Shown here piece by piece: positions 18,470 to 24,381 of a stretch of DNA of 59,136 nt. The first letter of the stretch is position 1. Each line of letters begins with the position of its first letter. The notes under the pieces are model-generated. The model was not told the DNA's origin and searched no databases. It worked only from the letters and a program-made list of their open reading frames with translations. The position numbers were made by a program, and so were the translations under genes. The DNA lies in NCBI GenBank assembly GCA_018673955.1, contig JABHBJ010000081.1:1-59136 (forward strand), in the 5' to 3' direction. This DNA is from Chloroflexota bacterium. Lineage in GTDB: Bacteria; Chloroflexota; Dehalococcoidia; Lucifugimonadales; Lucifugimonadaceae.

Positions 18470-19336
18470 TTGACCCAACTCAACCCAAACCCAATTATCG
18501 ATTCCTGCACCCACGTGCTTCCAGAGTCGTTCGCCGTTAACCGTGAACGACTCTCTAGATCTGACAGCACGTTCCGATCTTTGTTCGTCGATCCAAAGGC
18601 GAAATTCGCCGGATACAACGATCTAATCACATCGATGGACGAAGCAGGGATCGACGTTTCTGTGTGTGCGGGATTCGGATGGACCGACCCCGAAGTCGCT
18701 CGTGCCTCGAATGATTACAACCTCGAAGCGGCCCGATCACATCCTGACAGACTCGTCGCTTTTTGCAGCGTGAACCCGCTCTGGGGCGAAGACGCAGTAG
18801 AAGAAGTAAAAAGATGCCACGCCGCCGGAGCCAAAGGCATCGGAGAGCTTCACCCGAACACACAGGGCATCCTTGATGCTGATCTCGCCGCACTCGCGCC
18901 AGTGTTCGACACTGGAAAGAATTTGAAAATGCCGATCCTCATGCATGCGTCGGAACCTGTTGGGCACGGGTATCCGGGTAAAGGCAGCGTTACTCCCGAG
19001 CTTCTGATGGCTCTTGTGATCGCGTTTCCGAACAACACGTTCATATTCAGCCATTTCGGGGGCGGATTGCCGTTTTACGGATTAATGCCCGAGGTGAAGT
19101 CGGCTCTCAAGAACGTCTATTTCGACTCGGCGGCATTTCCGTTTCTTTATCGACCCGAAGTATTCGATGTTGCCGCTCGCTCTGTTGGAGCCGAAAAAAT
19201 CCTCTTCGCCAGCGATTATCCGCTCGTCAGCCAGAAGCGTGCGCTCGATGAGTTTGCAAAATCTGGACTGCCAACAGATCAAACTCAGATGGTTCAGGGT
19301 GCGAACACTGCCAAGCTATTGAGAATGCGCATATAA
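18470..19336 (+). CDS. Amidohydrolase family protein (COG2159-like TIM barrel)
   Basis: 288 residues, TTG start. The fold is that of amidohydrolase-related decarboxylases/hydrolases: strand-1 metal motif region IIDSCTHVLP, ILMHASEP (about His162), IFSHFGGGLPFYG, and FASDYPLVS with the catalytic aspartate near 243. The strand-1 motif is normally D-x-H-x-H; here it reads D11-S-C13-T-H15, so one metal histidine is cysteine. That could tune or weaken metal binding. Substrate is unknown. It stands divergent from the DUF362 gene. Confidence 0.85.
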   Translation: MTQLNPNPIIDSCTHVLPESFAVNRERLSRSDSTFRSLFVDPKAKFAGYNDLITSMDEAGIDVSVCAGFGWTDPEVARASNDYNLEAARSHPDRLVAFCSVNPLWGEDAVEEVKRCHAAGAKGIGELHPNTQGILDADLAALAPVFDTGKNLKMPILMHASEPVGHGYPGKGSVTPELLMALVIAFPNNTFIFSHFGGGLPFYGLMPEVKSALKNVYFDSAAFPFLYRPEVFDVAARSVGAEKILFASDYPLVSQKRALDEFAKSGLPTDQTQMVQGANTAKLLRMRI

Positions 19337-19453
19337 CACCGACAAACGCTAAGATTGAACTCATAACTGGTGGCTCCACCTAGCGCGACTTAACGAATTA
19401 CCTATGCCTGAATTTGCCTAGCACTCAAATTAGGGCGTATATTGAATTTAGAT

Positions 19454-19549
19454 ATGAACAACGCACTCCGTACCACAACTACGAACTCGCAGCAGGCTTG
19501 TACCTGTACGCCCACAGGGGTTGCTAGTTTTGCGTGTTGCACTTGTTGA
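19454..19549 (+). CDS. Cysteine-rich 31-residue mini-ORF (candidate leader peptide)
   Basis: The ATG at 19454 opens 31 codons ending in TGA. The peptide begins MNNALRTTTTNSQQ and its second half holds five cysteines (positions 16, 18, 28, 29, 31) in the patterns CTC and CCTC. Its stop lies 31 bases before a perfect intrinsic terminator, and a segment inside the ORF (19514-19522) is identical to the 3' arm of that terminator. This arrangement resembles a transcription attenuator sensing cysteinyl-tRNA. A tiny metal-binding peptide or RiPP precursor is possible but no maturation enzyme is near. The ribosome site is weak. Confidence 0.35.
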   Translation: MNNALRTTTTNSQQACTCTPTGVASFACCTC

Positions 19550-19608
19550 AGTAATCCAAGTCGCAACGTAGAGAATTTAGAACCCCTGTCGAAAAACAGG
19601 GGTTTTTT
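19503..19608 (+). terminator. Intrinsic terminator with possible antiterminator (attenuator-like)
   Basis: AACCCCTGT (19581-19589) pairs perfectly with ACAGGGGTT (19596-19604) around CGAAAA, followed by six T: a strong terminator. A second ACAGGGGTT at 19514-19522, inside the mini-ORF, can compete for the same 5' arm, and CCTGT at 19503-19507 can pair with ACAGG at 19514-19518. The four segments can thus form alternatives 1:2, 2:3 and 3:4, as in classical attenuators. Segment 1 overlaps two cysteine codons (TGT at 19499 and 19505). Confidence 0.6.
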
Positions 19609-19669: not shown

Positions 19670-19780
19670 ATGATCAAGATACTCAAAATCTCACTCTCAG
19701 GCTTACGCAAAGCAGTCGAATCCGCTCAAGGACTCGGCATCGAAGCCGGTTCGCTAACATTCGCCCCAAAAAGCCGCTAA
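19670..19780 (+). CDS. Possible 36-residue small protein after the terminator
   Basis: ATG at 19670 opens 36 codons to TAA (starts MIKILKISLSGLRKAVE, ends FAPKSR). The peptide is basic and could form an amphipathic helix. It lies between the terminator and the PhyH gene, with no clear ribosome site. It may be a real small protein controlled by the upstream terminator or chance; I see no homology. The rest of 19337-19998 holds a REP-like piece at about 19826-19850 (CATCCTGAGCCCTGTTGAAGG). Confidence 0.25.
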   Translation: MIKILKISLSGLRKAVESAQGLGIEAGSLTFAPKSR

Positions 19781-19998
19781 AGCCCGCCCGGCCTGTCATT
19801 CTGACACCGCCAACATCCCGCATGCATCATCCTGAGCCCTGTTGAAGGGTCACGTTACGCGCAGCCCACTCCCCAACCGATTCAAACCAAACTTACCGAA
19901 ATCCCAACGAAACACCGTCTAACGCGGTGTAACATTCCGCCCCAACAGACGCATCGCACACTAAACTAACGAATTAGTGCGATGAGGGGATTTCAGAA

Positions 19999-20976
19999 AT
20001 GCCGGCTCTCACAGCTGAACAAAAAGAACATTTCGAAGAGTACGGATTCGTACGCGTTGAAAACGTGTTCGACCCGGAAGCCACTATCGACCCTGTAATA
20101 GACGAATACGCAGGGGTTCTCGATTCGCTGGCGGAAAAACTATTCGCTGAAGGCAAAATCACATCGACCTACTCTGAACTAGAATTTGGCGACCGCGTAA
20201 CGAAAATCTACGTTGAATCGAACGAAGTTCATAACCAGTATTTCGATTTCTCGCTCCCCCAGAACGGCGTTCTATCCGACACTCCGTTTTGGGCAGGTCC
20301 GGCAGTTTTCAATGCTCTTACTGCACCCGGTGTAATCGACGTTGCGGAATCAGTCGTTGGCGGCGAGGTCTACTCGAACCCCGTTCAGCACGTTCGAATC
20401 AAAATCCCTGAATCAGTATCTCCCCGCGATGAAAACGGCAACGTTATGTTTGGCGTTAGTCCGTGGCACCAGGACGCTGGAGTCATTAACGAAGCAGCCG
20501 ACAAAACTAATCTCCTGACAGTCTGGTTTCCTCTCATGGACGCAGGTGTGGAGAACGGCTGCCTAACAGTAGTTCCGGGTTCTCACCGCGGCGAGTTATT
20601 GACGCACTGCCCTGGATATAAGGATCGACCGGGTCTGCAAATTCCTGAGAATCTCTTCAACGTCGGCGATTCGATGCCAGTTCCTGTGAAGAAAGGGGAT
20701 GTACTGCTGCTCACGAAGCGCACGGTTCACGCATCACTCCCGAACATTAGCGACAGCATTCGCTGGAGTTTCGATCTGAGATACCAGCCAACTGGTGAAG
20801 CGACTGGGCGGGACGTGTTCCCGGGATTTGTAGCACGCAGCGAATCTAATCCAGGCTCCGAGCTACATGATCCAGGCACGTGGTACGAAATGTGGAAAGA
20901 CACCCGCGATTCACTCGCAAGAGGTGAACAACCTTCGTTCAATCGTTGGAATCTAGACGACCCTTCATGCGCTTAG
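19999..20976 (+). CDS. Phytanoyl-CoA dioxygenase (PhyH) family protein
   Basis: 325 residues; Fe(II)/2-oxoglutarate-dependent hydroxylase fold. The iron triad is visible as His157-x-Asp159 (SPWHQDAG) and a distal histidine at about 243 (RTVHASLPN). The 2-oxoglutarate-binding arginine is probably in SIRWSFDLRYQP. The ATG has a good ribosome site (GAGGGG). Marine bacteria of this kind carry many PhyH paralogues thought to attack methyl-branched or recalcitrant organics; the substrate here is unknown. A methionine aminopeptidase follows 10 bases later, so the two may share a transcript. Confidence 0.92.
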   Translation: MPALTAEQKEHFEEYGFVRVENVFDPEATIDPVIDEYAGVLDSLAEKLFAEGKITSTYSELEFGDRVTKIYVESNEVHNQYFDFSLPQNGVLSDTPFWAGPAVFNALTAPGVIDVAESVVGGEVYSNPVQHVRIKIPESVSPRDENGNVMFGVSPWHQDAGVINEAADKTNLLTVWFPLMDAGVENGCLTVVPGSHRGELLTHCPGYKDRPGLQIPENLFNVGDSMPVPVKKGDVLLLTKRTVHASLPNISDSIRWSFDLRYQPTGEATGRDVFPGFVARSESNPGSELHDPGTWYEMWKDTRDSLARGEQPSFNRWNLDDPSCA

Positions 20977-20986
20977 TTCTGACCGT

Positions 20987-21886
20987 ATGATTCCGACTTC
21001 AGCCGAACTAGAAACGCTCCGTGAAGCCGGAAAAATCGCTTCCAACGCTCGAAATTGGGCAGCTGAAACGATCAAACCGGGCTATCTATTACGCGATCTC
21101 CAAGAAGGCATGGAAACGATGATCCGTGAGGCGGGAGCTTTGCCTCCGTTTCCGTCTCAGACCAGCCGAAACAAGATCGCCGCGCACTATTGCTCATCAC
21201 CAACTGACAACTCGCGTTTTGAAGAAAACGACTTGGTGAAAATCGATGTAGGAGCCCACATCGATGGGCTTATCGTCGATACCGGAGTTTCAGCCGATCT
21301 CTCAGAAGACCAACGCTGGAAGAGCATGATCGGTGCCGCTTCCAATGCTCTGGACGCTGCAATCGCTATGTGCCTACCAAACGTCGAAGTCGAAGACATC
21401 GGCGAGCGAGTTGAAGAAGTCATCACTAAAGCTGGATTCAAACCGGTCATGAACTTAACCGGACACGGACTCGGCAAGTACACGCTGCACGATCAACCAC
21501 AAATACCGAACGCAAGAATCGGTTTGGAAGGATCTCTCGAAGCCGGGTCTATATTCGCTATCGAACCTTTCGCTACATCTGGGCGCGGGTACATCAAAGA
21601 CGATGGCAAAGCAGAAGTGTTCATGCTTGAACGACCACCAAAGCCATCGAACAAAATCGATGCCGAAGCGTTTACTGAAATCGAAAGCTGGCGAGGACTG
21701 CCGATCGCACGTCGCTACTTCAACGATCTTCCCAAAAAGCCTTTCGAGCGAACCCTAAAAGAGCTAATCAAGCAGGGCGCAATGCGCGAGTACCCCCCGC
21801 TTATCGAAGTAACGGGGCATCACGTCGGCTGGAAAGAACACTCGATCTGGCTCGGCCCAATGGGTCCCGAAATACTAACGGCCTAG
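20987..21886 (+). CDS. map: Type II methionine aminopeptidase (archaeal-like)
   Basis: 299 residues; removes the initiator methionine from new proteins. The sequence matches archaeal MetAP-2, not the bacterial type I: FPSQTSRNKIAAHY near 52-65, metal ligands Asp87 (KIDVGAHIDG), Asp98 (IVDTG), His160 (TGHGLGKY), Glu193 (FAIEPFAT) and Glu284 (WKEHSIW), all retained, plus the type II insert between His160 and the C-terminus (about 225-265). Archaeal-type enzymes are uncommon in bacteria, which suggests an old transfer. Whether a type I enzyme also exists in this genome cannot be seen here. Confidence 0.93.
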   Translation: MIPTSAELETLREAGKIASNARNWAAETIKPGYLLRDLQEGMETMIREAGALPPFPSQTSRNKIAAHYCSSPTDNSRFEENDLVKIDVGAHIDGLIVDTGVSADLSEDQRWKSMIGAASNALDAAIAMCLPNVEVEDIGERVEEVITKAGFKPVMNLTGHGLGKYTLHDQPQIPNARIGLEGSLEAGSIFAIEPFATSGRGYIKDDGKAEVFMLERPPKPSNKIDAEAFTEIESWRGLPIARRYFNDLPKKPFERTLKELIKQGAMREYPPLIEVTGHHVGWKEHSIWLGPMGPEILTA

Positions 21887-24259: not shown

Positions 24260-24381
24260 GTCGTCCTTCGAGAGTCTCAGGATGACACTAAAAATCGCAT
24301 GCTATAAACGGTGGCTGCAGATTCACTTTGTTCAAGCCAGTTACCTCAAACAATGTCATCCTGAGGCTCTCGAAGGACGGC
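24260..24381. repeat. Inverted REP pair between convergent genes (family 3)
   Basis: A 27-base unit at 24260-24286 (GTCGTCCTTCGAGAG...ATGAC) and its inverse at 24355-24381 (GTCATCCTGAGGCTC...ACGGC) match at 25 of 27 positions, 68 bases apart. Transcribed from either side they give a long hairpin, so the pair could end or protect both convergent mRNAs. The unit is the widespread TCATCCTGAG...CTCGAAGGA element, with fragments also near 19826 and 8877. Confidence 0.7.

Follow-up and report, generated by a model that had tools for sequence, protein, structure and literature searches.

The locus lies in a window of 59,136 nucleotides, the whole stretch of DNA that was analysed (contig JABHBJ010000081.1), from a SAR202 Chloroflexota bacterium in the same genus as Candidatus Lucifugimonas marina (CP046147). 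Between the genes for an amidohydrolase and PhyH lie a Cys-rich upstream ORF (uORF), an intrinsic terminator and a small ORF, and the features, in window positions, are the following:

18470-19336: amidohydrolase, flanking gene
19414-19443, + strand: predicted promoter, TTGCCT (19414-19419), 18-nt spacer and TATATT (19438-19443), a consensus match only
19454-19549, + strand: Cys-rich uORF of 31 codons, MNNALRTTTTNSQQACTCTPTGVASFACCTC, five Cys, stop TGA, its ATG 10 nt past the -10 box
19499-19507, + strand: Cys cluster 1, codons 16 and 18, the putative regulatory cluster, with four Cys codons in most relatives
19514-19522, + strand: segment 2, ACAGGGGTT, predicted antiterminator 5' arm within the uORF, pairing with segment 3
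19514-19589, + strand: predicted antiterminator hairpin formed by segments 2 and 3, with the uORF stop inside it, -30.4 kcal/mol in the window
19535-19546, + strand: Cys cluster 2, codons 28, 29 and 31, adjoining the stop, present in genera g1 and g12 and absent from g2 and g10
19580-19589, + strand: segment 3, the terminator 5' arm, common to terminator and antiterminator
19580-19608, + strand: intrinsic terminator, GAACCCCTGT-CGAAAA-ACAGGGGTTT and T-run, -15.0 kcal/mol
19670-19780, + strand: small ORF of 36 codons, MIKILKISLSGLRKAVESAQGLGIEAGSLTFAPKSR, putative target and amphipathic helix by homologues, pN/pS and helix prediction
19999-20976: PhyH, flanking gene
20987-21886: M24 peptidase, flanking gene

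The 31-codon uORF with its five Cys codons and the perfect terminator downstream of it were found where a preliminary description of this DNA had placed them. The terminator has a perfect 10-bp stem (19580-19605) with T6 at 19603-19608 and sits between the leader uORF and the small ORF, as in an attenuator. Among the 412 ORFs in the window that start with ATG and have 20-45 codons, only 1 has five Cys codons, and Cys accounts for 0.58% of the codons when long ORFs of G013, the sister genome, are taken as our chance estimate. The decisive point for the uORF being real and not a chance reading frame is conservation, on which the preliminary description had staked its proposal, as the three elements, uORF, terminator and small ORF, stay together as a unit in 28 genomes from four genera. 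A DNA search matched the leader in most genomes of the same genus, and profile searches extended the unit beyond g1 to the genera g2, g10 and g12 of the family; the genomes compared were MAG assemblies. In reoriented alignments a TTTGCCT...TATATT block comes first, followed by a Cys-codon ORF ending CCTC-TGA and then by the terminator, after which there is another ORF, 34-36 codons long. Outside the family, in a sample of 197 genomes of the order and 393 of the class, the only copy lay on a 3.4-kb contig (G074). This copy (L103, G074:C81), in a genome of another family, is close to those of G002 and G016 and may be a transfer or a misbinned contig. An Rfam scan of the window at gathering score gave no match to T-box, SAM riboswitch or other families, and a tRNA scan of the window found nothing. 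A REP-like sequence (GTCATTCTGA / CATCCTGAGCCCTGTTGAAGGGTCA) occupies 19795-19850, in the gap from the small ORF to PhyH, and recurs at about 24320-24350; such inserts differ among relatives.

The TTTGCCT...TATATT block is kept in the genus alignment, and almost every genome has a -10-like box 7-16 nt ahead of the uORF start. Since the start is usually 7-13 nt past this box, the uORF is probably leaderless. The preliminary description had named transcription starting after 19550 as a case against itself; the promoter-like -10, by consensus match, lies upstream of the ORF instead. The uORF is present in 28/28 genomes with 22-38 aa (the shortest, of 22 aa, being MKYRSAMCTCCCTTRRGGVTAR) and 4-9 Cys, and in all 28 the clustered codons are for a single amino acid, Cys. 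These Cys codons are conserved while the intervening codons switch residue, and TGT makes up 147 of the 178 Cys codons in the uORFs compared with 43% in the sister genome. Every group has 5-6 nt between the final Cys codon of cluster 1 and segment 2 (CAGGGG-type), and across genomes 27-36 nt (30 nt in the window) separate the uORF stop from the terminator. Compared with its closest relatives G014 and G009, the window copy is shorter by 12 nt, a single CTCM repeat, and is left with two Cys codons in cluster 1. A link to selenium had been raised earlier as well. The genus does have tRNA-Sec, but several genomes end the uORF with TAG or TAA. As this stop varies among TGA, TAG and TAA, Sec at the uORF stop was rejected, and the switch is left with no tie to selenium. 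The tRNA-Sec (anticodon TCA) is located at L272:10741-10838, and Rfam tRNA-Sec scored above cut-off in 8/8 genomes checked.

Segment 2 repeats the first bases of the terminator 3' arm without a mismatch, which confirms the nine-base repeat of the preliminary description, and it can pair with segment 3 in 28/28 genomes. Folding of 12 genomes bore out the alternative states, as antiterminator (-22 to -39 kcal/mol) and terminator (-11 to -19 kcal/mol) are mutually exclusive via segment 3; the leader without ribosome was predicted to form the terminator in some of these genomes and the antiterminator in others, and with a ribosome placed at the uORF stop the terminator alone remained. The genomes' own 2:3 pairs reached -21.4 kcal/mol against -18.2 kcal/mol for pairs swapped between genomes, and 0 of 20,000 permutations, and likewise 0 with nine spread representatives, were as strong as the own pairs, although shared ancestry is not fully removed from this or from the covariation test. 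The own pairing also exceeded that of uORFs after synonymous recoding (mean z -2.1); for single genomes, G018, G019 and G015 among them, the shuffled-segment test carries little weight. Standard pairs amounted to 84% against 40-56% in slid controls, and 5 of 11 pairs were changed on both sides, in an alignment which was set by hand and, with one extra g12 pair and one G017 bulge omitted, leans towards structure. Compensatory changes include GGGGTT x AACCCC to GGGGCT x AGCCCC in G006 and ACAG x CTGT to GCAG x CTGC; the helix of G197 is GCAGGGGGTTG x CAACCCTCTGC, G569 has A-U where that helix has a G-U, and G017 has gained bases on both arms (AGGGC.AGGGGTT x AACCCCTGCCCT). From this comparison we predict an antiterminator which excludes the terminator and is so positioned that stalling at the Cys codons would release it.

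These data bear on the possibility that the Cys-rich peptide itself is the product, metal-binding or modified, and that the terminator merely ends its transcript. A content of 4-9 Cys in so few residues would suit such a peptide, as would the N-terminus M-x-N-x-L-R-T conserved in part of g1, with a pN/pS of 0.48 there; between genera, however, Cys spacing, length and N-terminus all vary, and the antiterminator pairing and the constant small ORF downstream are left unexplained. Moreover, past the Cys codons, g10 has the same RNA segment CCGCAGGGG in another reading frame, giving TTRRGG for TPAGG/V (..T-R-R-G.. vs ..P-A-G..), which argues that the RNA and the Cys codons are kept and not the peptide. 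We therefore consider the peptide very unlikely to be the product.

The preliminary description had read the leader as a four-segment switch, with an inner partner for the nine-base copy at the Cys codons. In the window CCTGT (19504-19508) can indeed pair with the 9-mer, but this pairing is broken in the relatives G009, G007, G004 and G002, and a 1:2 protector hairpin is not conserved; the conserved switch is thus one of antiterminator versus terminator and not of four segments. PhyH had been taken as the regulated gene, and a classic four-segment attenuator controlling PhyH would agree with the 1:2 pairing of the window and with PhyH being the next large gene there and in most g1 genomes. Besides the loss of that pairing elsewhere, this position lacks PhyH in G006, G002, G016, G186, G019 and g10, and what is conserved is the 36-codon ORF that the preliminary description had passed over; the block GAGTAACATTCCGCC just ahead of PhyH is kept in related form at loci without the leader (L039, L040 and L042), which points to PhyH having its own promoter. 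We hold control of PhyH by such an attenuator to be highly improbable. Since the next gene varies, PhyH is a neighbour in some genomes, and synteny led us to reject it as the common target.

The small ORF itself was found to be followed by its own intrinsic terminator in six g10 genomes, while the next gene is the peptidase in G006, G002 and G016 and runs antisense to the small ORF in G186, G019, G569 and some g10 genomes. Because of this terminator, and of neighbours elsewhere that are variable or antisense, the small ORF is, as judged from the genomes compared, the conserved target of the leader, and its product is a predicted amphipathic-helix small protein, as yet uncharacterised. The family comprises MINIFKIALSGIRKAIESAQGLGIEADSL in g1, MINLIKTAITVGRRFVESVQGLAVESESL in g12 and a 44-aa form ending VSAFRRLLNAVDGLGIEP in g10, and a pN/pS of 0.32 in g1 indicates purifying selection. 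AlphaFold without alignment gave for the window protein a single helix at 3-28 (pLDDT 72), which is too little for a fold search, and the hydrophobic moment was 0.48-0.62 compared with 0.24-0.31 for shuffles; Pfam, NCBIfam and PDB sequences yielded no match to the small protein. Control of translation via a sequestered ribosome-binding site does not fit here, as a terminator separates uORF and target and no clear Shine-Dalgarno is present at the small ORF.

Combined together, the conserved Cys codons, terminator and antiterminator pairing support well the earlier idea of an attenuator sensing Cys-tRNA, and we consider it very probable that the leader is a ribosome-mediated, cysteine-responsive transcription attenuator whose sole output is the 36-44-aa small protein. 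Transcription would begin at or just ahead of the uORF ATG, with a ribosome trailing RNA polymerase. When Cys-tRNA is ample, the ribosome would reach the end of the uORF and occupy or open the antiterminator 5' arm; since the uORF stop lies inside the antiterminator, a finishing ribosome would clear this arm and leave the terminator alone to form, and transcription would stop about 60 nt ahead of the small ORF. When Cys-tRNA is scarce, the ribosome would stall among the codons of Cys cluster 1, which directly precede segment 2, and leave segment 2 free to pair with segment 3, so that no terminator would form and the small protein would be made; a 1:2 protector hairpin would not be needed. Transcription start, stalling, read-through and Cys-tRNA charging as the signal are what we infer from these sequences. 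Stalling at Cys cluster 2 would be expected to favour termination, and this counts against the attenuator model, as do the mixed folds predicted for the leader without ribosome. One may also ask if the leader yields a stable small RNA, some 155 nt long, that acts in trans, read-through being incidental, for the promoter-like box and the intrinsic terminator do delimit a short transcript. Conservation falls, however, on the Cys codons, the 2:3 complementarity and the downstream ORF, with no focus on a single-stranded seed, and the small ORF has no -10 box of its own at a conserved place, so that such an RNA is scarcely probable as the explanation; a second role of the leader RNA in trans, alongside attenuation, would be compatible with this same evidence.

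Furthermore, a scan covering 2.4 of the 3.09 Mb of G013, directed at short ORFs rich in Cys and followed by terminators, gave one further convincing case:

L221:5520-5790 (G013:C1:545,520-545,790): second Cys uORF, MLNMSVTNVCCCTGR, with intrinsic terminator, ahead of a NirA/CysI-like sulfite or nitrite reductase

This uORF starts at 545,584 in G013, eight nt past TAGAAT, and is likewise leaderless by this prediction; a terminator lies 35 nt after its stop, and the reductase follows. The DNA of the reductase leader is kept in 12/19 genomes of the genus, and at this place TGY-TGY-TGY-ACY-GG turned up, with synonymous TGT/TGC changes, in seven genomes, the window's own included. In the window genome the reductase (G000:C49:3707-4625, outside the window) runs through two frames and contains a TAA, owing either to an assembly error or to decay. 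No such Cys leader was found in these SAR202 genomes at cysS or cysK, the most obvious Cys genes, a point against the attenuator model; the Cys matches ahead of cysK are the end of the upstream gene. The second leader also bears on the reading that the uORF senses metal or redox state via its nascent Cys-rich peptide and not the supply of Cys-tRNA. Cys-x-Cys patterns could bind Zn or Cu, and uORFs of the CutF type, which encode Cys-containing peptides and respond to copper, offer a precedent; yet at 22-38 aa the peptide is so short that, with the ribosome at the stop, its Cys residues would not yet have left the exit tunnel, the Cys spacing is not kept, and a leader of the same kind stands ahead of a sulfite/nitrite reductase. 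We give sensing of metal or redox state little chance of being right.

The second leader before a reductase makes Cys supply the most likely signal for the attenuator, and suggests a small cysteine-starvation regulon common to the small ORF and the reductase. A wider proposal, to which we would give an even chance, is that in SAR202 ribosomes on leaderless Cys uORFs with terminators directly coordinate such a regulon, whose members would include sulfite reductase and the new family of 36-44-aa amphipathic helices, the latter acting as sulfur-starvation effectors, for example by binding the membrane or a partner enzyme. As the conserved switch appears to control only a tiny and unannotated protein, it offers a functional lead, namely that this protein may take part in the response to cysteine or sulfur shortage. 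SAR202 is among the most abundant lineages of the deep ocean. Strains are in culture (PMC10444878), and therefore the switch is open to testing.

It is pertinent to compare this leader with known systems. Codon-specific stalling picks antiterminator or terminator in the classic trp, his and leu attenuators, and is the proposed chooser here as well; the SAR202 leader differs in having no conserved 1:2 protector and in placing the uORF stop inside the antiterminator hairpin. Codon-sensing attenuators usually control the biosynthesis of the sensed amino acid, whereas the SAR202 output is not a biosynthetic gene for it. Closer in codon content is uORFC-8-2 of Rhodobacterales cysS (PMC8632094), which shares conserved Cys codons in the uORF, an intrinsic terminator and predicted read-through when Cys-tRNA is short. 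It differs in its two tandem Cys codons, its cysS target, when SAR202 cysS has no such leader, and its alphaproteobacterial hosts, and its first stem contains the Cys codons, a feature not conserved in the SAR202 leader. The Cys leader peptides of actinobacterial cys operons, with targets cys/cbs, likewise have Cys codons in runs, close to the stop codon of a short uORF, but no conserved terminator or antiterminator was found in them (PMC1262725), unlike in SAR202. Mycobacterial leaderless polycysteine sORFs govern cysteine-metabolism operons by translation attenuation (Canestrari et al. 2020, doi 10.1111/mmi.14498, as outlined in PMC9031893 and PMC9094748). As these accounts outline them, they would share with the SAR202 leader a short Cys ORF, here probably leaderless, that comes first in the transcript and gates downstream expression, with several loci per genome under one signal; the intrinsic terminator and antiterminator, the phylum and the lone small protein as target set the SAR202 leader apart. 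Set against all of these, the SAR202 leader stands out by joining a probably leaderless start to an intrinsic terminator, by having no conserved protector hairpin, by its phylum and, most of all, by a target that consists of a small protein only. Taken with the reductase leader, these comparisons suggest that ribosome-coordinated control by cysteine, known from mycobacteria, also operates in Chloroflexota, with a transcription terminator as its output.
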